Origin: Inonotus obliquus
Taxonomy: Eukaryota > Basidiomycota > Agaricomycetes > Hymenochaetales > Hymenochaetaceae
Reading direction: 5' to 3'
DNA: 64,000 nt
NCBI GenBank assembly: GCA_032164295.1
Contig: JAJHTX010000013.1
Span: forward strand, 434,001-498,000
A program made the translations under genes and the position numbers. Position 1 is the stretch's first letter; each line of letters opens with the position of its first letter. Positions 37,786 through 59,631 of this stretch are shown here, one piece after another. The notes beneath the pieces were generated by a model. That model did not search any database and was not told the DNA's origin. It saw only the letters and a list, made by a program, of their open reading frames with translations.

Positions 37786-39720
37786 CAGAGGCTACAATCA
37801 ATATGGGCTTAATTCTGTGATTCTACTGTTTCTTACTTCTCTTTAGACTACGGTACTTCTGTTGTTCTATCTATATCTACAGTTCTATTAGAACACAAAG
37901 CTTCTACAATTCTACTAGACTCAGATCAGTTGGGAACTGGTTCTACAAGCATTATACCAGACTTTTATGCCAGTACCAAGCTACCAACCTTCGATACTGA
38001 TAATACCAAAACTATATCGATCCCAGACTTCTCTATTTCTACACCTGTACTCTGTGGCCCACACCTTACAGTCAATACTGCATTCTCAGTAATCCATACT
38101 GTTAATGGTACTTGGTATTCTAGGTAGAAACTGCCAGTCCGACTTGAAAGTGATGCTAAACTATGCCCAGTCAGTCTAAACTAGTGTAATAACTACGTTC
38201 TGAAAGGTACTGAAGGGTATGAGTGATCTTATTGATGCCTAGAGATGGCCCTAGCATACTAATCAGTACCAAATAATTGAGTACCTCACCACCAAGGTCT
38301 GGTTATACCAACATGTCAATATTAGCATGCTAAAAGTACGAGAATGTGGCTAGTATCAGAAGTACCAGTCGAGAGAGATACAATTTAGGTACGTTGGGAG
38401 GGCCAGTATGTAGCGGTGAAGAGAACTACATGCAGCTGAGCTCAGTATCGATAAATGTGCGAGATCGCGTCCGGTACCGGAGGTACCGAGACGAGGGGTG
38501 TATGGTTTTAAGTGGGGGGAGGGCTAATATGTGCCGGTACTTAACCAGTACGGTCACGGTACTTGTTGTCTATGAAAAGGGGGAGTGAATGGATGGGCCA
38601 GAAGCGAAGAGTATGTGATTCTGGTATGAAAAGGACAGTTTAGAACGTGGGAAAAACTTCGGTATAGGTCGCTATAAGAGAGAACGTAGCAAAACAAGAG
38701 TCTAATACCGTGGGAAAAACCTCGGTACAGGTCGGTACAGAAACAAAGGGGTCGGTATGTGAAGGTATGTTGTCAAACAAGAAGATCAGTACAGAAACTA
38801 AAGGATGACGTGCAGAATACAAAGAATAACAAAACGTCGGTACCGTGGGAAAAACGTCGGTACACGTCGGTACTGCAAGAAAACAACTGGCACGGGGTGG
38901 TATAGCAAGAAACTGAAGGGGAGAGACTGGTGGATGAAGGTGTCGACTGGACGGGGAAGCAAACCTGAGCCCTCACACGGGAGGCTAACTCTGAAGGTTC
39001 ACTTGAGACGGAACTGGGATGGGACTGGGACGAAGCTTGAGATGAGACTGAGACGGAACTGAGAAGGGGGTGAGGAAACCCGAGCCCTCACGTTAGAGGC
39101 TAGCTCCTAAGATTACCTGGAGAGCTACTACGTACAGGAGGAGATATTTATACAACTGTACCGTAGTTAGCTCATAAGTCCAAAAGGAGAAAGTAAAAAG
39201 GAAGATCAAAACAAAGAAAAATGTCATAAGAAGACTGATTACAGTAGAGCCATCAGGGGGACAACAAGAAAGGGTTAGGGAGGACAAGAAACCAATGAAA
39301 ACGTAGCATATAGTACCCCTGGATGAAAAGTCCTCAGGACAAGAGATTTGAACCCCTGCCAAACGATACCGACGCGTTCCTGGTGGTACCGGACCTGAAA
39401 ACCTTAATAGATACTGACCCTGAGCTTCCCCAATGAACCGGCATGCATACTCCAACCATCAGGAATGAATACCAGAGAGGAAGACGTCCGATCCATGTCA
39501 TGAGAGCATGTTGAATTGTCAATTTGTCTCGGTACCGGGTTTCTCGGCACTCGGTACTCTCGGTATTCTCGGTACCGGGTTTCTTGGCGCTCGGTATCGG
39601 TACTCTCGGCATTCGGTATCTTGAGAAATGTGACCGACAGTTTCTCTAGGTGTGCTGGTGAATACTGGAAGGTGTAGATGGGACTGTACCGTAGCATGGG
39701 GTAAGCGTAGAATGGGATAC
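37786..39720 (+). repeat. RepD copy 2 (left arm of large inverted repeat)
   Basis: Plus-oriented copy starting GAGGCTACAATCAATATGGG. Up to about 38330 it follows copy 1; from 38418 it contains the 1.3-kb unit bounded by inverted 30-mers. From 38466 to 39720 it is the reverse complement of 39770-41030. Confidence 0.7.
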
Positions 39721-39759
39721 CGGGGTTGATACCGAGCTCAGCTGCACGTAGTTCTCTTC
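38418..39759. mobile_element. 1.34-kb unit with 30-bp terminal inverted repeats, non-coding
   Basis: Bases 38418-38447 (starting GAAGAGAACTACATGCAGC) and the reverse complement of 39730-39759 match at 28 of 30 positions. Related units occur inverted in RepD copy 3 and, without a left terminus, in copy 4 (right terminus at 44429-44458), while RepD copy 1 lacks it. The termini suggest a TIR-type non-autonomous element, but no target duplication is visible and no transposase is encoded. Confidence 0.45.
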
Positions 39760-41030
39760 ATCGAGCCCAGTATCTCATTCTATGCTTACCCCATGCTACA
39801 GTACAGTCCCATCTACACCTTCCAGTATCCACTAGCACACCTAGAGAAACCATCAGTCCCATTTCTCAAAGTACCGAATGCCGAGAGTACCGGTACCAAG
39901 CACCAAGAAACCTGGTACTGAGAATACCGAGAGTACCAAGTGCCGAGAAACCCAGTACCGAGACAAATTGACAATTCAACATGCTCTCATAACATGGATC
40001 AGACATCTCCCTCTCTGGTATTCATTTCTGATGGTTGGCTTATGCATGCCGGTTCTTTGGAGAAGCTCAGGGTCAGTATCTGTTAAGGTTTTCGGGTCCG
40101 GTACCATCGGAAATGTGTCGGTATCGATTGGCAGGGGTGCAGATCTCTTGTTCTGAGGACTCTTCATCTAGGGGTACTATATGCTACATTTTCATTGGTA
40201 TCTTGTCCTCCCTAACCCTTTCTTGTTGTCCCTCTGATGGTGCTACTGTATTCATTCTTCTTATAACATTTTTCTTCAGACTTTTCTTTGTTTTGATCTT
40301 TCTTTTTACTTTCTCCTTTTGGACTTATGAGCTAACTATGGTACAGTAGTATAAATATCTCCTCCTGTACATAGTAGCTCTGGAGATAATTTTAGGAGCT
40401 AGGCTCTAGTGTGAGGGCTCGGGTTTCCTCACCCCCTTCTCAGTTCCGTCTCAGCCTCGTCTCAATTTCCGTCCCAGTCCCATTCCAGTTCCGTCTCAAA
40501 TGAACCTTCGGAGTTAGTCTCCCGTGCGAGAGCTCAGGTTTACTTCCCAGCACAGTCGACATCTTTATCCACCAGTCTTCCTCATTCAGTCCCTTGCTAT
40601 ACCACCCCGTGCCAGTTATTCTCTTGCAGTACCGACCTGTACCAACATTTTTCCCACGGTACTGACCTTTTGTTATCCTTTGTATTTTGCATGTCATCCC
40701 TTAGTTTCTGTACTGATCTTCTTGTTTGACAACATACCTCCACGTACCGACCTCTTTGTTTCTGTACTGACCTGTACCGAGGTTTTTCTCATAGTATTAG
40801 ACTTTTGTTTTGCTACGTTCTCTCTTGTACCGACCTGTACTAAAGTTTTTCCCACGTTCTGACCTGTCCTCTTTTCATACCAGTCTCATACCCTTCCCTT
40901 CCAGCCAGTCCTTTGCATCTCTCTTCTACAGACAACAAGTACCGTGACCGTACTGGTTAAGTACCAGCATATATTAGCCCTCCCCCACTTAAAACCATAC
41001 ACCTCTCGTCTCGGTATTTTGGTACCGAAC
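38466..41030. repeat. Large inverted repeat, arms about 1.26 kb, 49-base loop
   Basis: Left arm 38466-39720 and right arm 39770-41030 are reverse complements with scattered transitions; the loop is 39721-39769 and the axis lies at 39745. Arm lengths agree within a few bases. Near the loop the match is almost perfect (39665-39720 against 39770-39825). It is produced by two RepD copies placed head to head. Confidence 0.8.
39525..39625. repeat. Degenerate CTCGGTA(C/T) tandem repeat
   Basis: Roughly ten-base units of the type CTCGGTACTCT / CTCGGTATTCT / CTCGGTACCGGG repeat through this stretch. The inverted counterpart (TACCGAGA-type units) lies at about 39870-39965 and a decayed one near 44225-44325. 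Confidence 0.6.
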
Positions 41031-42530
41031 ATGATCTCGCACATTTAGTGGTACCAAGTTGTTCTGTTACAGACACATTATTGAGAGAGGTAGGATGACC
41101 TAGAAAGGTAGTAGAGTATAGGGAGACTTCAGGTAACTACTCACAAGAGGAAGTGGCAGGAGGCAATCGGTACCAAGATGAATCTGTTGATACTAAGTTA
41201 TCTAGTATTGGTACCAAGACAGTAAAGGCAAAAGGAGCTACTCTAGTACTAGTTTGCAATATCCAAGGAGGCGAAACAAAGAGAGACAACTGGAGAAGAG
41301 ATGGTGAGGAGTCTTGGTGGGGTGAAGTGCAAGACAAGAGGCGAAGACTACAAGAGACAATATCGACGAATACTGGTATCGATATCAGTGTCTATGAGAT
41401 AAGACAAATGAACTAGGACTTGAATGAGATGAGCAAAACCTGGATCTTAACTCAGGAAGCTCCTCTCAGATTAGCTGCCCTGCTAAGTAGAACATGCAAG
41501 CTATAAATACTATAATACCATAGCTATTCAAGATACCAAATAAGAATTTTTACAAGTTGAATTGTACTATAATCTGGTATAAGAAGGAAAACATAAAGTT
41601 GAAATAAATGTAAAAATATGATCAGGGGAAACATAAGATGATGAATGAGTGTGAAGTTTTATTAGGGGGAAACTAAGAATAGGGTAGAACAAGACAAGAA
41701 TTTAAATTAAACTCATAACGAGCGATACCGATGTAAGGTGGTGATACCAACATTAAGGCCAATACTAATAGATGGACCATCCTAAAGTGTTTCAGACTAT
41801 AGCAAGGGTGATTCTGACTGTGGTTCTGTCATCTCCTTCTTTAAAGAAGCACATTATTAAGATTTACCTTTATTCCAGTATCCTGATCTGTGTAGCATCA
41901 GTCAGGGGCAGCTACTAAGCGATCAGACTGTGTGCACCAATGTTGACATGTTGGTATAACCAGACCTTGGCGGTAAGGTACTCAATTGCTCAGTACCGAT
42001 CAGTATGCTGGGGCTATCTCTGCATTGATAAGATCACTTGTGTCCTTTGATACCTTTCAGAATGTGGTCATTGTGCTAGTCTGGACCGATTGGGCATAGC
42101 TCAGCATCGCTTCTGAGTCAGACTGGCAGTTTCTACCTAGAATACCAAGTACTGTTGTCGGTATGGATCACTGAGGATGCAGTATTAACTGTAAGGTGTG
42201 GGCCACAGAGCACAGGTGTAGAAATTAAAAAGTTGGAGATTGGTACAGTTTTGATATCATCGGTATCAAAGGTTGGTGGTTTAGCACTGGTGTAAAAGTT
42301 GAGTGTAAGGCTTGGTAGTTCGGTACTAGCATAAAAGTCTGATGTAATGCTTGTAGAGCTAGTTCCCAACTGATCTTAGCCTAGTAGAATTACAGAAGCT
42401 TTGTGTTCTGATAGAACTGTAGGCATAGATAGGACGATAGAAGTATCATACTTCAAAGAGAAGTAAAAAGCGATAGAATCACAGTGTTAAGCCCATATTA
42501 ATTGTAGCCTTCAGTGTTTCCCTTTTGCAC
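39770..42530 (-). repeat. RepD copy 3 (inverted, most complete copy)
   Basis: Minus-oriented copy of about 2.76 kb. It combines the sequence of copy 1 (41430-42520, reversed: GATACTAG..AAAGGTAAATC; AAACATAAGATGATGAATGA) with the 1.3-kb unit (39770-41030). Its outer end at about 42515 reads as the reverse of the GGCTACAATTAATATGGG start of the other copies. Confidence 0.7.
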
Positions 42531-42534
42531 GCAG

Positions 42535-44790
42535 CCCAATTGCTTGGCAAATGCCTCTGACTGATATCACACAGATTAGGATACTAGAACAAAGGTAAAT
42601 CTTGATGACACACTTTTCCAGAGAAGAAGATGACAGAGCTACGGTTAGAATCGCATTTGTTATAGTCTAAAATATATTGGGATGATCCATCTATTAGCAT
42701 CGGCCCTAATGTTAGTATCGTCACCCTACATCGGTATCGCTCATCGTGAGCTTTTATTGGATTCTTGTCTTGTTCTACCCTATTTTAAGTTTTCCTCTGA
42801 TAAAACTTTGCATTTATTCCTCATCTCATGTTTCCCCTGATCATATTTTTATATTCATTTCAATCTTATGTTTTCCTTCTTATACTAGACAGTGGTACAA
42901 TTCGACTTGTAAAAATCCACATTTAGTATCTTGAATAGCTATGATATTATGGTATTTATAGCCTACACCTTTTACCATAGCAGAGTAGCTAATCTGAGAG
43001 GAGCTTCCTGAGTGAAGATCTAGATTTTGCTCATCTCATTCAAGTCCCAGTTTGTTCATCTTGTCTTGTAGTCAACAGTATTGATACTAGTAGTCATTGT
43101 CCTTGTCATCTCCTCCAATCACCTCTCTTCGTTTTGTCTTCTTAAGTGTCCTTAAATGTGCAAGATCACATCTGGTACCGAAATACAGAGACAAGAGGTG
43201 TATGGTTTTAAGTAAGGGAGGGCTAATATGTGCCGGTACTTAACCAGTACGGTCATGGTACTTGTTGTCTATGAAAAGGGAGTATTAATAGACTGGCCAA
43301 AAGTAAAGAGTATGAGACTCTGGTATGAAAAGAGTAGGTTAGAATGTGGGAAAAACTTCAGTACAGGTTGGTATAAGGGAAAACGTAGCAAAACAAAAGT
43401 CTAATACCGTGAGAAAAATCTGTACAGGTCGGTACAGAAACAAAGGGGTCGGTACGTGGAGAAATGTAGTCAAGCACAAAGGTCAGTATAGAAACAAAAG
43501 GGTGATATGCAGAATACGAAGGATAACAAAATGTCGGTATCATGGGAAAAACATTGGTACAGGTTAGTATTGCAAAAAAACAGCTAGCACGAGGTGGTAT
43601 AGCAAGGGACTGAATGAGGTAGACTAGTGACTGAGAGATGTTGACTGTGCTAGGAAGTAAACCTGAGCTCTCACATGGGAGGCTAACTCCTGAGGTTCAC
43701 TTGAGATGAAACTGGGATGGGACCGGGACAGAACTTGAGATGAGACTGAGATGGAACTGAGAAGGGGGTGAGGAAACCCGAGCCCTCACACTAGAGGCTA
43801 GCTCTTAAGATTACCTAGAGAGCTGCTACGTACAGAAGGAGATATTTATACTACTGTACTGTAGTTAGCTCATAAGTCCAAAAGAAGAAAGTAAAAAGGA
43901 AGATCAAAATACAGAAAAGTCTGAAGAAAAATGTAACAAGGAAAGTAAATATTGCAGCGCCGTCAGGGGGACAACAAGAAAGGGTTAGGGAGGACAAGAT
44001 ACCAATAAAAATGTGGCATATAGTACCTCTGGATGAAAAGTCCTCAGAACAAGAGATCTACACCTCCATCAATCGATACCAAGACATTTCAGCTGGTATT
44101 AGACCCGAAAACCTTAATGGATACTGACTCTGAGCTTCTCCAAAGAACCATATATGCAAGGTCCAACCACTAGAAATGAATACCAGAGAGAGAAACATAT
44201 GAGAGCATGTTGAATTGTTAAAATGTCTTGATACCGAGTTTCTCAGCACTCGGTACTCATGGCACTCTTGGTACCAGCTTTCTTGGCGCTTGGTACTGGT
44301 ACTCTCAGCATTCAGTACTTTGAGAAATGGGACTGACAGTTTCTCCAGATGTGCTGGTAGATACTGGAAGGTGTAGATGGGACTGTACCGTAGTATGGGG
44401 TAAGCGTAGAATGGGATACCAGGCTTGATACCGAGCTCAGCTGCATGTAGTTCTCTTCATTGTAAGCCAGTACCAGAATAGCTCTCTTTGCCTTTGCTGT
44501 CTCAGTATTGATGCTAGACGACTTAGTATTAATAAATTTATCTCAGAACTGATTGCCTCCTGCTATTTATCTCATAAGCAGTCTCCTAGAGTCTCTCTGT
44601 GATCTACCATCTCACCAGGCCACCTTACCTCTCTCGACAACATATCTGTAATAGTATGACTTAATATTGCCATGTACTAACTCTCCCAATGTACTTAGAT
44701 CATACTCTCTCAACCAGTATTTCTGGTACTGGCCACAATCTTACACTTTTATTAGTATATAGTATATGTGTAGAGAATAGACAGCTTGGT
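42535..44790 (+). repeat. RepD copy 4 (5' truncated)
   Basis: Plus-oriented copy starting inside the repeat (CAATTGCTTGGCAAATGCC, matching 35590). It contains the 1.3-kb unit (about 43160-44458) followed by TTGTAAGCCAGTACC and then the segment matching 36240-36480 of copy 1 (GTATGACTTAATATTGCC). No coding capacity. Confidence 0.7.
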
Positions 44791-45031: not shown

Positions 45032-45301
45032 CTGCAGGGGAGACAGAACAGAATCACTCAGGTTTTTTGTGATTATACTGAGTATCTCAATCAAACTTTA
45101 AAGTAAGGACCGGTGTGCATAGACAAGTGTTACATGGACAGTTAATATAACATGCATAATACCTTTATGAAGGATGTAAGTCATAGACCATGGCAAGCAA
45201 CATTCATATATATTTTATTAGATAATCATTACCTACAATTGTTAGAAAAGCAATACAATTCACTGTTATTAAGTCTGATTAATAACCAAAGTGATCCCAA
45301 T

Positions 45302-45658
45302 ATGAATTGGATACAGGAAAGGTTAAATGCGGTTACATGAGTACTACAACAGCCAATAATACCAGCAACACCAAGACCAGGAGTGTTACAGTATTGTAGT
45401 ACATGTAGACCAGCACACGAGATAGTAGAGAAGCTACTCCGAGAGATACTGAAGGAAATAATATACTCAGCAATAATTAAAGGACAGTCGGACATCATGA
45501 TTAGGAGACGGTTCATTATAATGAACTACGAACCGAATACAGTTGTACAAAAAGCTTATGAACGAGAAGTCAGATTACTCTCATACGATAATTATTACTT
45601 TCTAATGGCAATAGGAATAAGGAATGTTGCTTCAGAGAAAGACAATCACCAATGCGAT
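45302..45658 (+). pseudogene. U3-encoded ORF of element B, 5' part
   Basis: Frame from ATG 45302 (MNWIQERLNAVT), with a TGA at 45338-45340 where copy C has CAA, then VLQQPIIPATPRPG, YCSTCRPAHEIVEKLLREIL and IIMNYEPNTVVQKAYEREVR, ending at the site where A inserted. It continues in frame after A at 59627. It shares C-x2-C-R, I-x-E-x-L and a Y/H-x-P-x-x-V-V block with the U3 ORF of A. Function unknown. Confidence 0.55.
45654..45658 (+). repeat. Target site duplication of element A, left copy (GCGAT)
   Basis: GCGAT directly before the TG of the left LTR; the same five bases follow the right LTR at 59627-59631. Confidence 0.92.
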
Positions 45659-45716
45659 TGAAAGGATTGTGCTGAAATTTTGATTCGATTAGGAACGCCG
45701 ATCGAAACTACCCCGG

Positions 45717-46493
45717 ATGGGACCGGTTAATTTCACTGGCCGGAGACGATCAGGATCGACAGCGAGAAGCGAAGAACACGCACGGCTAATACAATCCGAA
45801 GCCGACGATCAAGAAGCATCGGCTAGCAACGCTAATCCCGACGATCACACTAAACCTTCGCAAACGATGCAGCAAGTACAGCAACCTCCAACGGCTTGCT
45901 ATAAATGCAGAAGAGTGCGACAGATCATCGAAGACCTACACAAGATAATACTACGGGAGGCAACGGGCATGTTGACATATCATGTGTCCAGCGAACGAGC
46001 AACAGCTTATCGAGAATACCACAATCCCCCGGAGGTCGTTCGAAATCGCACGAGGTCAACAATAGCAATGGATACGGCAATAGGCATGCAACCAAAGACG
46101 CACTGGACAATAGTAGGAATCCACAACATATTAGCACTCGAGTGCCCAAGCACATTCGTGGAGATCAGTGCAGACTATGTTACGAACCGCCGCTCACCGA
46201 TAACAGCGGCATGGGTTGCAAACACACTCAGGGAACTATGGGCATACTGCAAAGCTATTCGACTACAAGGAGACCTATACCTAGGCTGGAGAATACCTTC
46301 GAACGATACTCGACGAAGTGTACGGCTACTCATCGCCATAGGCACATACGTTAAACCACCTTGGTTTCCCCACGATGATATCCGATGTCGAATCACACTT
46401 GACGGCCCCGAACAAGAGTCCCGAGGCGACAAGCAAATCACAGCCTTCATAGCCCCAGATGCTATACAACGGAACCCCGACGGAATTCCTTAA
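45717..46493 (+). CDS. U3-embedded ORF of element A, left LTR copy
   Basis: 258 codons from ATG 45717 to TAA, wholly upstream of the LTR TATA box, so it lies in U3. Residues 1-60 are disordered and polar. A CYKCRRVRQIIEDL segment with a C-x2-C pair follows at about 62-75, then an ordered region with several Trp and aliphatic residues (HWTIVGIHNILALE; ITAAWVANTLRELWAY; LYLGWRIP; VKPPWFPHDDIRCRI). No known domain is recognised. The B-family LTR carries a distantly related frame at the same place. Because U3 is copied only at the 3' end of genomic RNA, expression would be from the 3' end of the transcript or from an upstream U3 promoter. The left copy may not be transcribed. Confidence 0.6.
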   Translation: MGPVNFTGRRRSGSTARSEEHARLIQSEADDQEASASNANPDDHTKPSQTMQQVQQPPTACYKCRRVRQIIEDLHKIILREATGMLTYHVSSERATAYREYHNPPEVVRNRTRSTIAMDTAIGMQPKTHWTIVGIHNILALECPSTFVEISADYVTNRRSPITAAWVANTLRELWAYCKAIRLQGDLYLGWRIPSNDTRRSVRLLIAIGTYVKPPWFPHDDIRCRITLDGPEQESRGDKQITAFIAPDAIQRNPDGIP

Positions 46494-46823
46494 ATGCACG
46501 AGCAACTGCGGACGAGCGAACTTTAACTACGGCGCAGCCATGCAAAACCAATGGCATACGAACACGCATTCAATGACTCACTCACTGACTCACTCTATGC
46601 ACAGGGCGCAGCACAAGGCCGACCCCGAGCATAGGTTTCAATTCAGTTCAAGTCAAGATGAGTCAACGCCGAGTCATCGCCTTGCACAGTGCGCAGTCGA
46701 TGAGTCAATCCGCAGCAGAACAATAGGAATACCGCACGAGTTTGGAAGCTAGAATAACGAATCAGATCGAGAGTAGGAACTACGGAGCGTAGGAAGTGGT
46801 CCGTCCACAACATGAGGAAAAGG

Positions 46824-46873
46824 TATAAATAGTTGTAGACTTAGACCGTAGCTCCCCATCTTTCTTTCGATCG
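46824..46873 (+). promoter_or_regulatory. LTR promoter: TATA box and inferred 5' end of element A RNA
   Basis: TATAAATAG at 46824. Exactly 34 bases on, at 46858-46873, lies ATCTTTCTTTCGATCG, the perfect complement of the primer-binding region at 47243-47258. The transcription start is inferred at or next to 46858. The same arrangement is at 59210/59244 in the right LTR. Confidence 0.75.
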
Positions 46874-47242
46874 TCTTGTCCATCGAGTCCTCTTAGGCAT
46901 CTAGCTTCTAATCTGAAGACCACCTAATCTGCTTAACCTCTCTTACTCTACGGCGTGGAACGATTGATTAGTCGTCCACCGACTAGAGAAGCTTGCGAAC
47001 GGCAACCTACCTGTGTTTAACTGGGTACTTGTCCTACTAGCCTGTCAACGAGGTTGAGGCCCGACTTGATCAGTTAAACGAAAATGTCCGAGGCAACGCT
47101 TATTATACTTGGGAATCTGCCCTGCTTGTGAAAACCGAGTAGGCTCCGGAAACTCTTAGAAAAGCATCGCCGAACCCGTAACACTGAGGCCGTCCTATCG
47201 TGGTTACTGTATAGTCCCGTAGGGCGAGCGTTTTCTAACATT

Positions 47243-47258
47243 CGATCGAAAGAAAGAT
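47243..47258 (+). promoter_or_regulatory. Self-priming primer-binding site of element A
   Basis: CGATCGAAAGAAAGAT, two bases inside the left LTR end, is complementary over 16 bases to the inferred 5' end of the element's own RNA. No tRNA-3'-end-like TGG site is seen at this position. Tf1 and related chromoviruses prime reverse transcription in this way. Confidence 0.75.
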
Positions 47259-47369
47259 CTCCTTCGGGAATCTCAGTAGATCAGTGTTATCGCTTTCTAA
47301 CATACGAAGAAAGAAGATCCACTCGCAATTGGGAGTGTAATAACCAACAGCGTCTAACGCTAGTGAAAG

Positions 47370-47573
47370 GTGCACGTCACTACCGTTCTACAAATTACTC
47401 ACATCATTATCAAATTAGCCACTGTTATTCTTTACTGGGCTTGCGTAGCAAACGTTAGTCAGGAAGAGTATCAGTTGTATTCACCCAACTTCGACTCGAG
47501 CAGTTGTAATTGCCAGCCACTCGTCGAAGAACCATTACCTGCAGTTCCTACATACGTAGTCGAGCTACAGTGA
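47370..47573 (+). CDS. Short membrane-segment frame in element A leader
   Basis: 67-codon open frame with no ATG (opens at GTG). It contains ITHIIIKLATVILYWACVANV, a plausible transmembrane helix that resembles the start of the pre-gag frame of element B (IKLIVAYSTVLTWLVASIIV). It is not in frame with the coiled-coil frame that follows, so joining would need splicing or frameshifting. May be a remnant. Confidence 0.35.
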   Translation: MHVTTVLQITHIIIKLATVILYWACVANVSQEEYQLYSPNFDSSSCNCQPLVEEPLPAVPTYVVELQ

Positions 47574-47799
47574 AACTATCACCAATACGATATACGATCA
47601 AGTGTCCCATCGCACATCGAATCGAGTACAAGTCTACTAGAGTCACCTTCATCGGAAGTCGACTGACTCGTAGCTAGTTGAAGATTGATTCAGAAGGAAA
47701 CCTGGGCTTACAGGAGGAGAAAAGAATCTGACAACTACGAAGAACATTATCCAGGAAGGATACGAAGTCAACTAAAGAAGCCAATTCGCTTATCGATAT

Positions 47800-48681
47800 A
47801 TGCAACATCAACGACGTAGTAACGGTCGAAGCAACCTACCAAGAGGTCCACGCAACGACACACAGGAACAGCCAGAACGTTGAGGCAACAATCGAAACGC
47901 AAGACAAGCACGAGAGTTGACAAGGGAATACGAAACCCTAGCAAGGATTGCGACACTCGAAAGACAAGTGATCGCACAACACAACAGACAAGAGTTATTG
48001 GAGATCCACGAGGAACAACGTCAAATCGAAATCGACGAAATCAAATTCTTAACGAGAAGAATTATAGCAGCCGTCGAAGGACTCCAAGACAACGTTATCG
48101 CAGGAAGCACGCCAGCAAACTTACAGAGGTCTAATCTCCAGACAGAGCAAACCGCTACAGGAGACGGAGTTACAGTATCTGGACTAGCCAAGGATCTCGA
48201 GGAATTCGAGCAATCGACAAGACACCGGTTCTTCGTCGAACGAACGTTAATCAACGGTCTCGTCGATAGAACAAATCAGCTAGAAGAGCAGAACAAGAAG
48301 CTCGACAACCAGTACCAACAACTCACAGAGTTAATCGGAAACATCCAGAGAGAACACATCGAAACAACTCAACGCATTCAAGAGACACGCAACGAAATCC
48401 AAAGGTCATTGGAAAGTAACGAATCAATAGACTCAGGCGAAACGCACATCGAACAGTTCACCTTCATTCCACGTGAACAGATCGAGGAAGTCTTGACAAG
48501 GATCCGTAACTTGACATTGGAAGAAGAAACCGCGACAGTATCAAGCGGCGTACAGACAAGCGTACCAATCGTTGAAACATTCGAGACAACTCTATTACCG
48601 ATCAGACCACCTCGCGTAGTAGCATTTACCGACAATGGCAACACCTCCAACACCAGATCAACTACAAGCTCGGATCAATGA
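47800..48681 (+). CDS. Pre-gag coiled-coil frame of element A
   Basis: Open frame ending at TGA 48679-48681 and overlapping the gag start by 47 bases (gag is in the +1 frame). ATG 47800 is in frame but is followed by TGA at 47881-47883 (CGT TGA GGC); from there to the end, over 260 codons, there is no methionine codon. The product would be a long coiled coil (ARIATLERQVIAQHNRQELL; LVDRTNQLEEQNKKLDNQYQ; IQREHIETTQRIQETRNEIQ) with a Ser/Thr-rich end. Element B has a similar frame at the same place. Translation could start at a non-AUG codon, read through the TGA, or begin on a spliced exon; or the TGA is a simple disabling change. Function unknown. Confidence 0.5.
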
Positions 48682-49750
48682 GCTTACCAGTCGAATGGCA
48701 AGATTGTTGATCAAACTACCAAAGTTTCTAGGCGCACGAGACGAAAGTATCGATCAATGGGTAGACAGGAGTGTGGCGAAATTAGTGTCAAACGGAATTA
48801 AGGACGAGAAGGAAATTGCGAACGCGCTATTCCTAGCTATCGAGGGAGATGCATTCAATTGGTTCCTCGAAAAGCAACTCACCGTATCATTCGACGCTAC
48901 CACCGGAGCACTCAAGAGCTTACCTACCGTCGTAGATGCAGCAGGAGCGGTTGCGAAACCTCCTACCGCTATGTTCGCATCACTCAGGGATATGATTCAA
49001 TTCATTCGTACCAAAGCAGGCAAAACCGTTCCACAAGAACTCGAGGCCCTGAACAAGATATTCAATATCAAACAGGCCAGCAAACCTATCGAGAGTTACA
49101 ATCACGCGTTCAGGCAACTACGAACGAAGATTGCAAGCACAGTGGACGAGAATACGATCAAGCACTGCTACATCAAAGGATTGGATCAATGGCTTATCAA
49201 TCGCGTACTCGCACACGACATGGAAGCATTCACGAAATTCAGTTACGAAGAATGGATGGCAATAACGGAGCAATATGCAGTCATGAACAAGACAAAGGCT
49301 CAGCTCACGCAAGGAACATATCAACCACGGTATTCATTTCATGGACAACCGAGGTACGAGCAGCCTACGAGACTAGAAAGGGATCCGAACGCAATAGACA
49401 TCGATGCAATCCGAGGCTTGCCGAAGAAGGGATCATCAGGATGTTACAATTGCGGAAGACAGGGTCACTATGCAAGCAAATGCCCCGAACCAAGAAGATC
49501 ACCTACGTCTAAAGAAGCACTAGGTAATCACCGCCAACATCGTCGACCAAACACGTCTAAAGGAGCACGTGGAAGATCGGCGAAGCATCACAAGAAGAAT
49601 AGAAGAACCATGCACGCAAGAATTCAAGAAGCCGAATCCGAGGAAGAAGAAGACGACAATCATACGAACAAGCGAAACGTCAATCCCAAACCACGCGACC
49701 AGAAGCCTAACAAAGGAAAGGCTAAGGCACAAGGTCAGGGAAAAGACTAG
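48635..49750 (+). CDS. Gag polyprotein of element A
   Basis: 371 residues from ATG 48635. Capsid-like part: LIKLPKFLGARDESIDQWVD, NALFLAIEGDAFNWFLEKQL, QELEALNKIFNIKQASKPIE. A nucleocapsid zinc knuckle CYNCGRQGHYASKC (C-x2-C-x4-H-x4-C, about residues 269-282) follows, then a basic tail and an acidic patch (ESEEEEDD). The last bases before the stop (49738-49744) form a slippery heptamer that would connect gag to pol by a -1 shift. Confidence 0.92.
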   Translation: MATPPTPDQLQARINELTSRMARLLIKLPKFLGARDESIDQWVDRSVAKLVSNGIKDEKEIANALFLAIEGDAFNWFLEKQLTVSFDATTGALKSLPTVVDAAGAVAKPPTAMFASLRDMIQFIRTKAGKTVPQELEALNKIFNIKQASKPIESYNHAFRQLRTKIASTVDENTIKHCYIKGLDQWLINRVLAHDMEAFTKFSYEEWMAITEQYAVMNKTKAQLTQGTYQPRYSFHGQPRYEQPTRLERDPNAIDIDAIRGLPKKGSSGCYNCGRQGHYASKCPEPRRSPTSKEALGNHRQHRRPNTSKGARGRSAKHHKKNRRTMHARIQEAESEEEEDDNHTNKRNVNPKPRDQKPNKGKAKAQGQGKD

Positions 49751-49780
49751 CACCTCCGCTCAAGACTGCGAAGCGAGAGG
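49738..49780 (+). promoter_or_regulatory. Predicted -1 ribosomal frameshift signal, gag/pol of element A
   Basis: Slippery heptamer G GGA AAA (49738-49744) in the gag frame, 8-base spacer, then a hairpin: CCTCCGCT (49753-49760) pairs with AGCG and GAGG (49772-49780, one bulged A) around an 11-base loop. The gag stop TAG is at 49748. A -1 slip enters a frame that is open through to the pol ATG at 49801 and beyond. Confidence 0.7.
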
Positions 49781-49800
49781 GTAAGAAGGATTGCGAAGAA

Positions 49801-52800
49801 ATGTACAGTAAAGGATTACCGACATATGCATTACACCCAAGATTGCCTATCAGGATTCTTGTGGGAACGCAAACCTTAGCAGTCAAAGCACTTATCGACT
49901 CAGGAGCAACATGCAGTACTATTCATCCGGAGTTAGTACGAAAGCATGACTTACCAAGACGAACGCTATCACAACCTAGACCGTTGCGAAATGCAGATGG
50001 AACAGCAAACCGAAAAGGAGCAATCAAGTACGAAGTGGACGCACTTATATTTGACGGAATCAAGCCCATCGGTCAAACTCTGGCAGTCGCACATACGGGA
50101 ACGGATCAGATCATACTAGGCATCGATTATTTGGGCAAGGCCAACCCGATCATCGATTGGAAGGAACAAGTCATGGAAGGAAATGGACAAACGATACCAT
50201 TTGAGCTCAGTATCGTTCGAGCAGAGTCGACAAGCAAGAAACGGAAACGAAAACGGAAAAGTACAAACCGTAATCGTAGAGGCAGAACCAATAAGCCCTC
50301 ACCGCGTTCAGGCAGCACCAATAAGACCGAACGGCGGGGTAGCAATGGCAATAAGTCTACGAAAGGCAGAGTCAATAAGACCTTACGATCGAACCAGAGT
50401 AGCAATGGCAATAAGGCTACACGAAACGACCCAAGCGTCAACAAACCAAAGGGAAATCTGGTAACCGACAAGCGCAAATCGGTAGACGATCAGGAGAACA
50501 GTTGTAATCGCGAACAACGAAGGAAAGCTAGGCCCAATCAAATAGGAGAGGCGACTAGTCAGGAGCGACCATCCTGGTACGGGAATGAAAGAGCCATTAC
50601 CCAAGACGAAGGCACGAAGACATCGAAAGCTCTATACAAGACAGAGAAACGAAAGGTTCCACAAGTAGATCAACGATCGCAGCATGGCAGTAGCAATAAG
50701 ACCAAGCAGGCACAAGGCAGTCGCAATAAGACCTTGAAGAGTCGAGACGATCAACGACCGAAACAACAAGGCATTGGCAATAAGCCCTTGAACAGCCAAC
50801 GCAGTACCAATAAGACGTTGCCGTTGGATAGTAAATCACCTGTTACGCGCAAGACAGCCTATGGCAGGAAGACGAAAGCTAAAGCTACGAAGAGCCCTGG
50901 ATCCGGCTCATCTGACAACTCAGAAACCGACAGCGATAGCGACAACGATAGTGGAATATGGATTAGGCCAGACCTCAACACGAAGGAAAGGCAAAGGGAC
51001 GACCACCCTAGAGAAGGCAGAAACCGAAGCGAAAGCCGATCGACGAGAAACGAAACAAGGAACGTTTCACCACCGAGAATTAGACCACGATCAGGAAGTC
51101 AATTCAGCAATGCTCCAAGGAAGAGAGCACGGACGCCAGAAGGTGAACGAACGTCGAACGCACCAAGACAAAGCAGCGCCAATAAGACTTTGCAGTCTAG
51201 TCAGAGCATTGGCAATAAGACTCGACAGGACTGGGCAGTACCAATAAGGCCCGAAGACGAATCAAGATCGCCTATATCAAGATTCGAGAATGAACAGGCA
51301 GAAAGACCTGACACACGAGTACAAAGTCAAGGCAGTCGCAATAAGCCCTTGCAACCGAGTACGACATCGCTAGGAAAGCGAAGACAAGAGTCACCGTCAG
51401 TCGAACGGAAGACAACGAAACCACGAGTAGTCAAGGAAGACCCTACATTCAAGTATTGGAAAGGTTATCTTCGAGAAGGAGAAGAAGCCGTAGGAAACTT
51501 TGATCCGAAAGGCACATGGATTATGCCACAAAAGGAACGATTCGAAGACAAACCGATACTAGGACATCGGCGAAGACAGTCTATCGATAGTACAGGAAGT
51601 ACACGAACACGAAGCCCCGCACCGAAACGAACAAGGTGGGAGCACACGGATCAAGACGAAGTTATGGACGAACTGCAAGAACCAGGAGGAACCCAACCTC
51701 AAGAAGAAATGCATATCGAACGTATGGTAACCAACGAACCATCACCTATTCAGCAGCGAATAGCGTATCTCGCCACCGAGGCTCGAGGTAAATCAAAACC
51801 CTTACTGCAGAAGGAGGATCTCGCAGAAATGTTTGAGATCAAACGAAATTGGTCACCAAATACGAATCGACAGCATCGCCAAGAGAAGCAACCATTGAAC
51901 AAGGTTAGCTCAGTAGCGCAGCAATACTCGCAGCAGAAAGCAGCAGCAGAGGGATTGCTAGACACGCAGAAACGAGATTGGCGCAAACTGCTACCAAGGC
52001 AGATAGCAGACTATGCAGACGTATTCGATCCAGACAGGGCAAGACGACTACCAAGACATACGAAGTATGACATGGTCATACACCTCGATGAGAAGGAACC
52101 GTTACCGAAACCACGACCTATTATCAAGCTCACGCCAGTCGAACAGGAAGCACTGGACAACCACGTAGATGAGCTGATGAAGAAAGGATGGATTACCAAG
52201 GTCGAACCACACGAACCATGCCCAGTAGCATCACCCGTATTCTTTGTTGGAAAGAAGGACGGAGGGGCAAGAGTAGTAACGGACTATCGAGCGATAAACC
52301 AAATCACGATACCAGACCCGTACCCGATTCCAATCATGAATGGGTTACCAGACAAGTTGGCAGGCAACAATTACTTCTTCACATTGGACATGCGGTCCGG
52401 ATACCACAACTTGCGTATCAAGGAAGGAGATGAATGGAAAGCGGCATTCCGAGTCGGCAACACGATCTACAAGCCACTCGTTATGATGTTCGGAATGAAG
52501 AACTCACCCGCAATATTCCAACGATTCATGAACGACAACTTTGAGCAATGGCTACGAAGTCAGGAGATACTTATCTACCTGGACGACATCATTGGAAAGG
52601 CAAAGACTGAGGAAGAACACTGGAAACTCCTACGAGCAGTCTTGAAGAAATGCCGAGAACTCGATATCTACTTGAAGATCGAGAAGTGCCATTTCCTACA
52701 GAAGAAGCTAGACTACCTAGGCTTCATAGTGGGCGACAAGGGAGTACAAATGGACCCGTACAAACTCAAAGCAATCGCAGAATGGCCTACACCAACGACG

Positions 52801-54420
52801 AAACGGGAGATCAGGAAGTTCCAAGGATTTTGCAACTTCTATCGAAGATTTGTGAAGAACTATGCAGAGCGCATACACCCGATTAACGAACTCACCAAGA
52901 AGGATAGGAAGTTCGTATGGACAACTGAATGTCAGCAAGCATTCGAGGACATCAAGCAAGCGTTTCAAACGGAAATAACGCTAGGTTATCCAAACCACGA
53001 TAAACCATTCATCCTCGAAACAGATGCATCGAAATTTGCGATCGGAGCTTTACTCCAACAAGAAGACGACAAGGGCGAACTACGACCGTTAGCCACAATG
53101 TCGAAGCAGTTGTCAGGAGCACAACTCAACTGGCCAGTTCACGAAAAGGAGATGTTCGCAATTGTTCATTCACTGAACGAATGGAGACACTTGCTTGAAG
53201 GAACGAAACATCCTTTTATCATTCGAATGGATCACAAGAACCTGCAATGGTTCATGACAGGACAGAACCTATCTGAGAAGCTGAAACGATGGATGCTAAA
53301 GCTATCCCAGTTTAACTTCAAGATGATACATTGGCCAGGCAAGGAGAACAAAGCCGACGCACTATCAAGGCGAACCGATTACGAAATCGGCAAAGACACA
53401 GAGAAGATCACTATGCTACCAGCAGACCGCATACAGCAGCAAACGTTGAAACGAACGGAAGTCGCAGGACTATACGAGTTGAAAACTACGTCAGTCAGGA
53501 TCACGGACCCGATACTTCGAACTATTCGAAAGGACTATGCGACAAAGGAGGCACAAACCGAATGGAACGTCATACGGAATACGAAAGACAGAAGCCACAC
53601 CTACACGGATGGAACTCGTTATGTAGATGGAAAGTTATGGATCCCGCCGAACGCCAACCTACGAAGTCTACTAATGCGAAGGCACCATGACCACACAACT
53701 GCAGGCCATCCCGGAGTAGCCAAAACCACTGAGCTTCTGGAGAGACGATACTATTGGCCAAACCTTCGATCGGACGTCCGAGACTATGTAACAACTTGCG
53801 ACGCATGTCAGCGATCAAAGCCTCTTCGGCAAAATCGCGAGCCACCGATTCAACCGATATCCCCACCTGAAAGGCCATGGGAAGCCATTTCCTGTGACCT
53901 GGTTACAGACCTACCAGTCAGTACCGAGGGATATGACACCATACTGGTTGTTGTGGATAGACTTACCAAGATGGGGAGGTTCATCCCTATGACGGGTGTA
54001 CCGAATGCCAAACGCATTGCACAGATGTTCATCCAAAACATCTTCAAGCATTATGGGACCCCAAAGGTTGTACTCTCCGACAGAGGAAGCAACTTCACGG
54101 CGCAGTTTTTGAAGGAGTTCTGCCGACTCCTCGAAATCGATTGGAAAACTAGCACCGCGTATCACCCACAAACCGATGGTCAAACAGAGCGACTGAACCA
54201 AACAATGGAACAGTACTTACGCTGCTATGTGTCCTACCGACAGACAGATTGGGCACATTACTTGGATCTCGCAGAATTCGCCTATAACAACAGACAGCAT
54301 TCAGCAACACGTCAATCACCATTCTACACGTTGTACGGATGGAATCCAACAACTGACTTTGCCAGTCACGATGAAAGCAACGTCCCAGAAGCACAAGATT
54401 ACCGAGAGGAGCTTCAATAA
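49801..54420 (+). CDS. Pol polyprotein of element A (protease, RT, RNase H, integrase)
   Basis: 1539 codons from ATG 49801; the frame is also open upstream into the end of gag. Protease active site LIDSGATCST at residues 31-40. Residues about 140-560 are a long basic, disordered insert full of Asn-Lys repeats, unusual for pol. Reverse transcriptase spans about 770-1000 (KKDGGARVVTDYRAIN, TLDMRSGYHNLRI, YLDD at 926-929). RNase H starts near 1070 (FILETDASKFAIGALL). Integrase has the zinc motif with HHDH..GHPG and CDACQ (about 1295-1340) and D1366, D1427, E1463 with the D-x35-E spacing. The frame ends at TAA 54418-54420, after which the same frame stays open for the integrase C-terminus and chromodomain (next entry). 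All catalytic residues are present. Confidence 0.93.
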   Translation: MYSKGLPTYALHPRLPIRILVGTQTLAVKALIDSGATCSTIHPELVRKHDLPRRTLSQPRPLRNADGTANRKGAIKYEVDALIFDGIKPIGQTLAVAHTGTDQIILGIDYLGKANPIIDWKEQVMEGNGQTIPFELSIVRAESTSKKRKRKRKSTNRNRRGRTNKPSPRSGSTNKTERRGSNGNKSTKGRVNKTLRSNQSSNGNKATRNDPSVNKPKGNLVTDKRKSVDDQENSCNREQRRKARPNQIGEATSQERPSWYGNERAITQDEGTKTSKALYKTEKRKVPQVDQRSQHGSSNKTKQAQGSRNKTLKSRDDQRPKQQGIGNKPLNSQRSTNKTLPLDSKSPVTRKTAYGRKTKAKATKSPGSGSSDNSETDSDSDNDSGIWIRPDLNTKERQRDDHPREGRNRSESRSTRNETRNVSPPRIRPRSGSQFSNAPRKRARTPEGERTSNAPRQSSANKTLQSSQSIGNKTRQDWAVPIRPEDESRSPISRFENEQAERPDTRVQSQGSRNKPLQPSTTSLGKRRQESPSVERKTTKPRVVKEDPTFKYWKGYLREGEEAVGNFDPKGTWIMPQKERFEDKPILGHRRRQSIDSTGSTRTRSPAPKRTRWEHTDQDEVMDELQEPGGTQPQEEMHIERMVTNEPSPIQQRIAYLATEARGKSKPLLQKEDLAEMFEIKRNWSPNTNRQHRQEKQPLNKVSSVAQQYSQQKAAAEGLLDTQKRDWRKLLPRQIADYADVFDPDRARRLPRHTKYDMVIHLDEKEPLPKPRPIIKLTPVEQEALDNHVDELMKKGWITKVEPHEPCPVASPVFFVGKKDGGARVVTDYRAINQITIPDPYPIPIMNGLPDKLAGNNYFFTLDMRSGYHNLRIKEGDEWKAAFRVGNTIYKPLVMMFGMKNSPAIFQRFMNDNFEQWLRSQEILIYLDDIIGKAKTEEEHWKLLRAVLKKCRELDIYLKIEKCHFLQKKLDYLGFIVGDKGVQMDPYKLKAIAEWPTPTTKREIRKFQGFCNFYRRFVKNYAERIHPINELTKKDRKFVWTTECQQAFEDIKQAFQTEITLGYPNHDKPFILETDASKFAIGALLQQEDDKGELRPLATMSKQLSGAQLNWPVHEKEMFAIVHSLNEWRHLLEGTKHPFIIRMDHKNLQWFMTGQNLSEKLKRWMLKLSQFNFKMIHWPGKENKADALSRRTDYEIGKDTEKITMLPADRIQQQTLKRTEVAGLYELKTTSVRITDPILRTIRKDYATKEAQTEWNVIRNTKDRSHTYTDGTRYVDGKLWIPPNANLRSLLMRRHHDHTTAGHPGVAKTTELLERRYYWPNLRSDVRDYVTTCDACQRSKPLRQNREPPIQPISPPERPWEAISCDLVTDLPVSTEGYDTILVVVDRLTKMGRFIPMTGVPNAKRIAQMFIQNIFKHYGTPKVVLSDRGSNFTAQFLKEFCRLLEIDWKTSTAYHPQTDGQTERLNQTMEQYLRCYVSYRQTDWAHYLDLAEFAYNNRQHSATRQSPFYTLYGWNPTTDFASHDESNVPEAQDYREELQ

Positions 54421-55152
54421 GCGCAGCGACAAGCCTATGCAAGCATTAAGCAGGCTAACGAAGCGATGAAGTTATATGCAGACTTACATCGAGGGAAGCT
54501 ACCAGATTATCGACCTGGAGACGAAGTGATGTTGGATATGAAGAACTTAGCAAGACTCGAACCGACGAAGAAACTAGCCATGAAATGGGCAGGGCCTTAT
54601 AAAGTCGACAAGGCCGTGGGGAAGGTTTCATTTCGACTGAAACTTCCTGAAACAATGGCAATTCACCCAGTATTTCATGCGAGTCTATTGAAGCCATACA
54701 AGCGGAAAGAATTCCCAGGACGTAAGCAACTTACGGAACCACCACCAGTAGAAGTGGAAGGCGCAGCCGAATACGAAGTCGAAGCAGTTCAAGATACCAG
54801 ACTGCGGCGCAGCAAGGTGCAATACCTAGTCAGATGGAAAGGCTATGCAGAAACAACATGGGAACCGCTGGAGAACCTGAAGCACACGTACAAGCTAGTT
54901 GAGGACTTCCACAAGAAGTACCCTCAGGCGCAGAAGCCACGGAACCTTACGCAATGGTTATCCGCGAGGCGCCGGAATAGGAAACAAACGAGTCACGAGG
55001 ACACGGAAGAATCCTCCGACGGATCAGAAGGATCGACGTCAGACTCAGAAGGTAATACTGATACCGAAAGCACAGTATCAGAAGACAGTCAACGCAGCAT
55101 GCGCAGTCGAGGAAGGACTACGCGCAGCAGCAGACGACTACGCCCGCAGTAG
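54421..55152 (+). CDS. Integrase C-terminus with chromodomain (after in-frame TAA)
   Basis: Same frame as pol, separated from it only by the single TAA at 54418. It begins AQRQAYASIKQANEAMKLYA, has the integrase C-terminal SH3-like part (YRPGDEVMLDMKNL; GPYKVDKAVGKVSFRLKLP; HPVFHASLLKPYK, the GPY/F module), then a chromodomain YEVEAVQDTRLRRSKVQYLV with WKGYAETTWEPLENL, which targets such elements to methylated histone H3 chromatin. The acidic, Ser-rich end finishes in an Arg/Ser tail. Either the TAA disables this copy, or it is read through. An ATG lies at 54466. Confidence 0.85.
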   Translation, partial: AQRQAYASIKQANEAMKLYADLHRGKLPDYRPGDEVMLDMKNLARLEPTKKLAMKWAGPYKVDKAVGKVSFRLKLPETMAIHPVFHASLLKPYKRKEFPGRKQLTEPPPVEVEGAAEYEVEAVQDTRLRRSKVQYLVRWKGYAETTWEPLENLKHTYKLVEDFHKKYPQAQKPRNLTQWLSARRRNRKQTSHEDTEESSDGSEGSTSDSEGNTDTESTVSEDSQRSMRSRGRTTRSSRRLRPQ

Positions 55153-55464
55153 GCATAACTGCGGCACAGCAAGTAGTACTCATCTGCAGCTGATCACAGA
55201 AGATCGCAGCAGATGATGACATTCTCGCAGCAATGCTTGAGAATTTACGAAGTCACGACGAGTCATGAACAGTCACGAACGAACGAGAGACACTGCGGCA
55301 CAGTATACGCAGTAGAGGTCAAGTCATATCGAAAACAACTGGACCGATCACCCAGTCATACGCAGTAACGACACAAAGCTATAAGAACAAGCAGTAACGA
55401 CCTATGAACGGCACCAACGCCAGAAACAACTCTCATTCGACACGAAACAAGTATACATTTCGAA

Positions 55465-56481
55465 ATGCCACTACTCGAAACACTTGCAGAAGTACAGCAT
55501 GCGCAACTCAATGTCACAGAAGTCGACATACAGTCACGACCCGACAAATATCAATGGCCACAGCTAGACGACAGGGAGAACACCGAGATGTTATGGGATG
55601 ACATCATACCCTCGAACGTCGGCAGATATTTCGACGATTTCATGGACAAGATCAGCATGGCACATCAGCGCGGCATGGGATACAATATGCTGCTAATGCC
55701 ACCGATATTCTTTGGATCTTGGTTTGCCATGACTACAGAAGCTTACAATTCAGTGAGAAGACTCAATGACGACGCTTACATCGCATATGCTCTAGATCTC
55801 AGCACAGCGATTCTATCGTATCAACCGTTGCTGTTGTCACAAACGGAAACAGTCAGCAATTGCGTCGCATTACTCTATGCAGCAACGAGGATCTGTGCAT
55901 ATCGAGTCGAGCTCACAGAAGCATTCGAACACAAGGTCATGCGATGGTCGCTTATCCACTGTATCACAGCCAAAGAACGCGACTACATCGAGTACATCGC
56001 GCAGCAGCAAATTCAATATGCACGACTCAAGAGACGTTTCTACTCTACGATCAACATACTTAGGCAAACATGGGAACGAACAAAGGCACCAGGAAGATCT
56101 ATCCCATGGGACACACCTCATCGAGACTTACCATACTTGGAGGCGTGGAAACTGATCGAGAACGAAGAAACGGAACGCCGCAACAAAGCGAAAGAAGCAG
56201 CGGAAGGATTATGGGAGAACCCTCCGGACAAACTAGACCAATCTATTTGTTGGCCTTACGACGAGGACTACCTCCAGGCACTCAACAGTGCGGAATACCG
56301 CCTTAGATACACCCTAGGCGCAGTACTACATCCTAAAGATAGTAGCTGGTTCACGGACGTATATCAATATCCGCAGAAGCTACAATCCCGGAAACCCGAG
56401 GACGAGACATCCAATAGTCGCAAGAGATCCCACGATGACACAGAAGAATTCGATCTAGCGCCGACAGATGACGAAGCATAA
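55465..56481 (+). CDS. Post-pol ORF 1 of element A, unknown function
   Basis: 338 codons from ATG 55465, 312 bases after the pol stop. No known domain recognised. The start is acidic/polar (LLETLAEVQHAQLNVTEVD), followed by MLWDDIIPSNVGRYFDDFMD, a moderately hydrophobic patch GMGYNMLLMPPIFFGSWFAM, and helical stretches with AYALDLSTAILSYQPLLLSQ, TRICAYRVELTEAFEHKVMR and an Arg/Lys/Glu-rich region around 200-250. The tail (RKPEDETSNSRKRSHDD...) has a possible nuclear signal. It has no signal peptide or fusion-peptide features, so a classical envelope protein is unlikely. Codon use matches gag and pol, and the long open frame in a young copy argues for a real product. Confidence 0.6.
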   Translation: MPLLETLAEVQHAQLNVTEVDIQSRPDKYQWPQLDDRENTEMLWDDIIPSNVGRYFDDFMDKISMAHQRGMGYNMLLMPPIFFGSWFAMTTEAYNSVRRLNDDAYIAYALDLSTAILSYQPLLLSQTETVSNCVALLYAATRICAYRVELTEAFEHKVMRWSLIHCITAKERDYIEYIAQQQIQYARLKRRFYSTINILRQTWERTKAPGRSIPWDTPHRDLPYLEAWKLIENEETERRNKAKEAAEGLWENPPDKLDQSICWPYDEDYLQALNSAEYRLRYTLGAVLHPKDSSWFTDVYQYPQKLQSRKPEDETSNSRKRSHDDTEEFDLAPTDDEA

Positions 56482-56820
56482 CTATGCAACTCATTCTTCT
56501 ATGGTATTTATTGACAGAACAACACATGCGCACCCCATGGTATCTATTCAACATTATGCAACCCGAAATCCCCTATGGTATTTATGAATGCCAAGTCAAC
56601 TGCGCACATACATCGAAGAATCACGGGACTATTACGAAGCGACTACGGGCAAGATAATTCGTACACGAATGACAGGATATGGGAAATCCGCAGCACGACA
56701 ATAATAGAGTGCGACAGCGAAGCACAGATCGCAGCAAGACAATTGAAAACCGCAGCAACCGCAGCACGGTGAACCCGGGGAAGACTAGAACAGAGTCACG
56801 AAGGGTACAAGTTGGAAACG

Positions 56821-56830
56821 CATAAATAGA
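56821..56830 (+). promoter_or_regulatory. Internal TATA-like box before post-pol ORF 2
   Basis: CATAAATAGA, close in sequence to the LTR box (TATAAATAG), 76 bases before ATG 56906. It could drive a separate short transcript. Inferred from sequence only. Confidence 0.4.
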
Positions 56831-56905
56831 GGCAGGAATCCGACAGGAGAGCCTCAGCTGGAAAAGCACAAGTAGTCTAGAACCACCAATGACATCTCGA
56901 ACACC

Positions 56906-57670
56906 ATGAACGCCTACTACACCGCACTCCTCATCATCACGGTCTGCACCACAGCCGTAGTGATCGTGGACGTCGTACAACGAGCGCTGGAACGCTGGGA
57001 GCAGTTAGTAGTGAGGCTCGAGGAAATAAACAGAGAGCAGCACGAGATGAGGATAGAGGAGTCACGAAGGACCCAAGAAGTGAGACGAGCACGAGCCCAA
57101 GGCCGTAACCTCACAGTCGAGGCACTCCACCACATAAGCGCAACGTCCTTCGGACGCATCGAAGACCGCCTTCAAGAAATACTACAGAGCATCCCCGACC
57201 GAGCAATCGAAGACCTAGCAACATCGAGCGCAGCAAGACTCGATCAGCTGGTCGATGACGTCGCAAGGATGCGGGCGGCAATAGAAGAACTCGAAGCGAT
57301 CAGGAACACGGCAGAAGCACAACAGGCACAGGCACCGGTAGAAGCACCACCGGCAACGCCCGACGACCTATACGTCGACCTACCCGGCTACGTACAACCC
57401 GAACCAGAAGCATGGCCCGAAGCAGACGCGGCAGAAGCAGAAGCAAACGCGTGGGGCGGCCCGTACATCCTACAGGGTCCGCAACCGCCGGCTAATGCCC
57501 CGTGGTGGCCGATGCGAGGTAGACAGCGGGTGTCGGAAAGGTCAGGCCTGCACAACCGGGCAGCCGAATCGCCAGAGTCAGGCGAAGGCTCAGTAAGCCC
57601 CGGTGAGAGCCGAGATTGCGAGTGGACAGCGCGCGGATGGAACGACGGTCAGACCCATTGGGAGGACTGA
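56906..57670 (+). CDS. Post-pol ORF 2 of element A: membrane-anchored coiled-coil protein
   Basis: 254 codons from ATG 56906. Residues about 4-24 (YYTALLIITVCTTAVVIVDV) form one transmembrane helix or signal anchor. They are followed by a long charged coiled coil (LERWEQLVVRLEEINREQHE; FGRIEDRLQEILQSIP; LDQLVDDVARMRAAIEELEA), then an Ala/Pro/Glu-rich linker and a Trp-rich acidic tail (ANAPWWPMRGRQ; CEWTARGWNDGQTHWED). The plan (TM, coiled coil, acidic Trp/Pro tail) resembles the pre-gag frame of element B, which also ends in Trp-rich acidic sequence. GC content is higher than in gag or pol. Not an evident envelope glycoprotein. Function unknown. Confidence 0.6.
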   Translation: MNAYYTALLIITVCTTAVVIVDVVQRALERWEQLVVRLEEINREQHEMRIEESRRTQEVRRARAQGRNLTVEALHHISATSFGRIEDRLQEILQSIPDRAIEDLATSSAARLDQLVDDVARMRAAIEELEAIRNTAEAQQAQAPVEAPPATPDDLYVDLPGYVQPEPEAWPEADAAEAEANAWGGPYILQGPQPPANAPWWPMRGRQRVSERSGLHNRAAESPESGEGSVSPGESRDCEWTARGWNDGQTHWED

Positions 57671-58031
57671 ACCGGCAGGGCAAGAGGTGCAGAGGGAGGA
57701 AAAATAATAAAGAAAAATTTTCTTATTTTGCTTTTGGTGTGACAAGTCTAAGTCCACTAAAGTGAAACTTAAAGGAAATTTACAAGAAGAAACAACAATT
57801 CGACTGGGAGTCAAGCTATCTCCCTTTACTTTCTTCAAATTACCCTCGAAGCACGCTCTCAAATCGAGCTCAGGATACGATTTCAGACTTCAATAAGTCT
57901 TTCAACTGCATCACGCACACGAATTTCGAAGGAAATACGAAGCAACATCGTCACTAATTTCGCACACGATCCTACGATCTCATCGCAATTTCAACCCAAT
58001 TGAGATCTTTTCCCTATCGAGTAAAGATCTT

Positions 58032-59626: not shown

Positions 59627-59631
59627 GCGAT
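59627..59631 (+). repeat. Target site duplication of element A, right copy (GCGAT)
   Basis: Matches 45654-45658. Confidence 0.92.

Follow-up and report, generated by a model that had tools for sequence, protein, structure and literature searches.

In the retrotransposon Tf1 it is the first 11 bases that match the primer site, and the RNase H cut falls between bases 11 and 12, according to the consulted sections of PMC7175516. The consulted part of PMC10085805 presents self-priming as common in the Tf1/sushi group and also depicts the Tf1 leader as a three-duplex 'pretzel' in which two duplexes flank the primer duplex. Self-primers have been predicted from sequence for Tj1, Tosmo1–3 and Tcry1 of other fission yeasts (excerpts of PMC4600332 and PMC10085805), self-priming has been proposed for Tcn1 of Cryptococcus neoformans (PMC7175516, same sections), and the Tcn1-clade elements of mosses and club-mosses are mostly predicted to be self-primed (excerpt of PMC6317226). 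The corresponding excerpts on two other elements report neither tRNA- nor self-priming evidence for a Tcn1 element of Selaginella (PMC2864245), and no such complement for Skipper of Dictyostelium, a chromovirus without TGG (PMC5006619). Self-primer lengths beyond that of Tf1 were not found in the literature searched, which was a limited collection.

The window we analysed is a stretch of 64,000 nucleotides belonging to the 36-Mb genome of Inonotus obliquus (30 contigs), and it contains an LTR retrotransposon of about 14 kb, element A (45659–59626; the features of A given below, and the TATA box, primer and primer site of H, lie on the + strand, the target-site duplication having no strand). 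The LTR pair (45659–47240 and 58045–59626) lies on a single alignment diagonal with two mismatches in 1582 bp (at 46163 and 46711), has TG...CA ends, and is flanked by the target-site duplication GCGAT on the left (45654–45658) and on the right (59627–59631). Between the LTRs we found a 254-aa ORF with an uncertain start codon and a sub-threshold Pfam match only (47917–48681), a gag-like ORF with Ty3_capsid and Retrotrans_gag matches below the Pfam cut-off and a CCHC zinc knuckle above it (48635–49750), and a pol ORF (49801–54420) that in this copy ends at an in-frame TAA (54418–54420), which separates it from the ORF carrying the integrase C-terminus (SH3_Tf2-1) and chromodomain (54466–55152). 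These are followed by a 338-aa ORF (55465–56481), for which neither a Pfam match nor a homologue was found in protein searches, a second 254-aa ORF without a Pfam match (56906–57670), and a polypurine tract, GGAGGGGGGCGAG, directly preceding the 3' LTR (58032–58044). Because Pfam identifies protease, RT, RNase H, integrase, SH3_Tf2-1 and chromodomain, with the chromodomain following the order PR–RT–RH–IN, A is a chromovirus of the Ty3 superfamily. The genome has 17 copies of A which are 99–100% identical in RT, and in 11 of these a frame of 1808 aa is open across pol. We note that two copies appear to be arranged in tandem with one LTR in common (locus L003, C12:401999–403644), this LTR being preceded by a polypurine-like tract, GGGGGGCGAG, and followed by a primer site.

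The LTR of A also contains a 258-aa ORF (45717–46493, and again at 58103–58879) with a dN/dS of about 0.31. Of 31 distinct copies of this ORF, 29 are intact, two have a stop and none has an indel; it has no Pfam match, and a protein search found no homologue at E 1e-3. A selected LTR-encoded protein, as this might be, would be unusual. It should also be noted that A sits within the 5' LTR of a second chromovirus, element H (45239–45658 and 59627–60828), whose RT lies just beyond the edge of the window and whose LTR region has a diverged copy at 32625–33924. Just upstream of A, at 38452–44460, repeats in direct and inverted orientation are clustered, with about 75–90% identity.

The preliminary description of this DNA had proposed that A is self-primed, on the grounds that a TATA box, TATAAATAG, at 46824 is followed 34 nt on by a block, ATCTTTCTTTCGATCG, whose exact reverse complement lies two bases past the LTR end, and these elements are all present in the sequence. 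The TATA box occupies 46824–46832, the block 46858–46873, and the complement, which we take as the primer-binding site, 47243–47258. The end of the LTR can be placed at 47240 because the LTR pair, the TG...CA ends and the GCGAT on both sides agree, and this leaves a spacer of TT (47241–47242) before the site. The start of transcription predicted from the TATA box (+34, with a C/A initiator) coincides with the first base of the complementary block, which would thus be the 5' end of the RNA. The 16-mer occurs exactly three times in the window, in both LTR copies and at the primer site, and 153 times in the genome (77 + 76, LTR copies and sites), and the same pattern read backwards does not occur.

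The earlier judgement that a match in this position is very unlikely to arise by chance is borne out by a strict search, which required a TATA box, a distance of 33–35 nt, and a complement of at least 11 nt following directly after CA plus 0–2 nt. This returned no match in 40 Markov-resampled sets of 275,643 letters, compared with ten rows from four families (A, D, F and H) in the real sequence, variants and one-base offsets being counted. A looser scan (10 nt, 28–40 nt from the TATA box, and the LTR condition dropped) does not discriminate, with 17 raw rows in the window versus 28 in the reversed window, and it is the strict criterion alone that separates real sequence from control.

We expanded the comparison to other chromovirus families of the same genome on the premise that, if the block is a primer, the differing blocks of other families should match their own sites. 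The families were H from the window, D and F from within other genomic loci, B, E and a second copy of H, and G and a second copy of F (L093), with the 5' end of G taken from L092 as the neighbouring L091 starts within gag. In RT, B is 55% identical to A, the two H copies 52% (window) and 54% (second copy), G 45%, D and the second F copy 43% each, and E 39%; the RT belonging to the first F copy (C12:417749, 42% identity to A) was assigned by position only. A TATA-spaced block complementary to a downstream site is present in every family whose 5' end was captured, seven in all (A, B, D, E, F, G and H), these seven being a sample from a genome with 138 RT matches, most of which fall outside the comparison. 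A further five H-like LTR loci (L085–L088 and L090), with no primer site in the short stretch after the LTR, may be solo LTRs and are outside the seven families.

Six different primer sequences are found among the seven families: that of A, AGTTTAATCCA which H and B have in common, ACTCTCTTGTT in D, ACTCGACTCTT in F, GTCTCACTATT in E and AGCTTTGACCT in G. In every family the primer starts 33–35 nt after the TATA box and has a purine at +1 (A in six, G in one), and the base at –1 is C except in one family, which has T. In the window, H has its TATA box at 60303–60311, its putative self-primer at 60337–60347 and its primer-binding site at 60831–60841, 2 nt past its LTR end (60828). The site starts 1 nt (D, E and F) or 2 nt (A, B and H) after the ...CA end, where the LTR ends are backed by a second LTR copy in A, D and E, and by coordinates in H, and are placed in B and F by sequence pattern only; the bases before the site of G are ...GATATA, with no CA, and the position relative to the LTR end refers to the other six families. 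Primers and sites thus differ together between families, which comes close to a natural compensatory-mutation experiment, and the sequence evidence for self-priming now takes in seven chromovirus families of a single fungal genome. We also observed that D, F and E have a direct repeat of 25–29 nt which begins at the 3' end of the primer and recurs about 60 nt later (L006 3475–3566, L016 86–169 and L083 1252–1338); the two repeats are alike within each family, and on visual inspection the stretch between them resembles an intron, having GT...AG and, in E, also TACTAAC.

This comparison bears directly on the possibility that the match in A is a product of chance or the remnant of a duplication. 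There is indeed, 62 nt downstream (47291–47319), a degenerate second copy of the LTR end together with the primer site, with an alignment score of 33 where the best of 200 shuffles reached 29 and none reached 33, and its purine stretch is far more variable among full copies than that of the real site. However, this duplicate leaves out the region of the RNA start, the signature is absent from the resampled sets, and six primer sequences at one TATA distance in a single genome would have to be accounted for in the same way. The reading is already contradicted by the seven families, and we regard its probability as negligible. The duplicate itself could be a trace of an earlier shift of the boundary. 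Apparent second copies of the primer site in the U5 of H and B were rejected, as 21 and 55 of 200 shuffles, respectively, reached their scores.

Priming by a tRNA is the commonest mode among LTR elements generally, and a host tRNA, through its 3' end or an internal fragment, could be the primer of A, with the match to the LTR being incidental. We cut out 30 of the 63 loci with tRNA matches in the genome and obtained 94 ARAGORN predictions, 41 of them distinct and many on small contigs that are apparently mitochondrial. Against these 41 tRNAs the longest run at a 3' end complementary to the site of A is 5 nt, and the longest anywhere is 8 nt; the preliminary description had suggested this comparison, and its outcome goes with self-priming. 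TGG is absent from the site. That the tRNAs read are part of the host set leaves some room for a tRNA primer, yet such a primer would leave the perfect 11–16 nt match of each of the seven families to its own LTR unexplained. We have rejected tRNA priming of A on the lack of fit among the tRNAs read, and consider it very improbable.

Given the geometry of the locus, the agreement of the seven families and the poor fit of tRNAs, the proposal that A is self-primed holds as the best reading: A very probably primes minus-strand DNA with the 5' end of its own RNA, with the start, cut and extension as predicted from the DNA. The RNA would begin at 46858, some 34 nt past the TATA box, and its first 15–16 nt would pair with 47243–47258 by folding back across about 385 nt. 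RNase H would then cut the leader close to where the duplex ends on its inner side, at about nt 15–16 rather than nt 11. Extension of the released 3' end, which faces the LTR, would run across TT and U5 and yield strong-stop DNA, which would place the end of the cDNA 2 nt beyond CA. This is the already known mechanism of the Tf1/sushi type, with a match in A that is longer than usual.

The minimum-energy fold of the leader holds the duplex between primer and site in all seven families, and this adds little because such long perfect complements would pair anyway. For the duplexes that flank the primer in the 'pretzel' of Tf1, we found many candidates of 6–10 bp in the leaders, none of which was convincing or common to the families; a candidate helix in A, between CTTGTCC beside the primer and GGGCGAG, does not stand out. 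The predicted folds would also suit a complement that serves as a structural RNA element (in leader closure, packaging or translation control) in an element that uses another primer; Tf1-type leaders are described as having further duplexes (PMC10085805, in part) and Skipper, without TGG and, in the excerpt of PMC5006619, without such a complement, must prime otherwise. Against this, six families have the site at a fixed place, 1–2 nt past CA, where a primer is positioned, and no other candidate for a primer was found at the LTR end. We think it highly improbable that the complement has a structural role only with priming left to another molecule.

If the RNA 5' end of A is the primer, its length needs to be considered separately. 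The preliminary description had noted that the duplex exceeds the 11 nt of Tf1, and the length of 16 nt is real as sequence. B, D, E and F have matches of exactly 11 nt. That of H is 13 nt in the window copy (reaching 60349) and 11 nt in L089, because two spacer bases happen to pair in the former, and the 12 nt found for G by the scan can be read as 11 nt counted from the purine, with one further pair at –1. It is credible, if on the doubtful side, that A primes as Tf1 does with an 11-nt primer (46858–46868 on 47248–47258) and that the five further pairs are coincidental: four families have a match of this length and H and G have an 11-nt core, the extension seen in H can be accidental, and base R16 of the block is variable in A with one copy mismatched there. 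Five extra pairs would arise by chance in only about 1 in 1000 cases (4^-5), however, and with an 11-nt primer the LTR end and the primer would lie 7 nt apart, where the other five families with a placed LTR end have 1–2 nt. As this gap would set A apart, a primer of about 15–16 nt is moderately favoured by the sequence.

Variation among copies of A adds to this picture without deciding it. We compared the primer site and its surroundings at 17 genomic places, 15 of which are identical over a 28-nt pattern, with one spacer change (AT for TT) and one change at pair 16 in the remaining two. The latter belongs to a copy with a matched double change at pair 16, A:T for G:C, in both LTRs and the site (L025/L081), a change which would suggest that each cycle may rewrite the site of A from the primer. 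Both changes fall at CpG, though, so that two coincident transitions are a possible explanation. In another copy (1 of 17), R16 is C in both LTRs and the site is unchanged, giving a mismatch, from which it follows that pair 16 is dispensable or is not copied. The evidence at pair 16 is therefore mixed. R16 is also the most variable base of the block, with four substitutions and three neighbouring insertions among 32 distinct LTRs, and R1–15 has one change in 480 base-copies in the same set; this proves little because R33–83 vary as little (three changes in 1631 base-copies). The lack of any change in R12–15 (0 in 128 base-copies) speaks against an 11-nt primer in the same limited way, and we rejected constraint on these bases as evidence for the primer because the LTRs of A are too uniform to tell.

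Our fuller reading is that A has a longer self-primer than the Tf1 type, in which the duplex, the RNase H cut and the 3' end of the primer would have moved from nt 11 to about nt 15–16 with the 2-nt distance to the LTR kept, and we put this forward tentatively, at slightly short of an even chance. If A does have such a longer primer, the duplicate downstream of the site would be a trace of the shift of the site. The match or core of 11 nt in six families and the 16 nt of A offer a comparison for what sets primer length, and the question posed by these families is whether it is set by a fixed RNase H distance or by the end of the duplex.

Among sequences with a named source, A is nearest in RT to two chromovirus proteins of Sanghuangporus baumii, P0003 and P0006, with 70% and 65% identity, and these group with A in our RT tree. 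In this tree of 15 rows, which was constructed without Tf1 or sushi, the one firm grouping of A is with P0002 and the two Sanghuangporus proteins, and the wider fungal group around A is weakly supported. The site of A is complementary to the predicted start of its own RNA, a common feature in the Tf1/sushi group, and A fits this group by its priming sequence rather than by the tree. Tj1, Tosmo1–3 and Tcry1 are like A in that their self-primers were predicted from sequence in the same way, as far as the excerpts cited above describe them, and Tcn1 is like A in being a chromovirus for which self-priming has been proposed, a likeness by description in the cited sections.

The resemblance to Tf1 and Tf2 of Schizosaccharomyces pombe extends beyond the complementarity of the RNA 5' end to a site just past the LTR, as these elements also have a chromodomain at the C-terminus of integrase and an SH3_Tf2-1 domain. 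Their 11-nt match is that of the sister families of A, as the full match or as its core, compared with 16 nt in A itself. Unlike Tf1 and Tf2, A is about 14 kb in size, has LTRs of 1582 bp containing an ORF, and carries two extra ORFs after pol.
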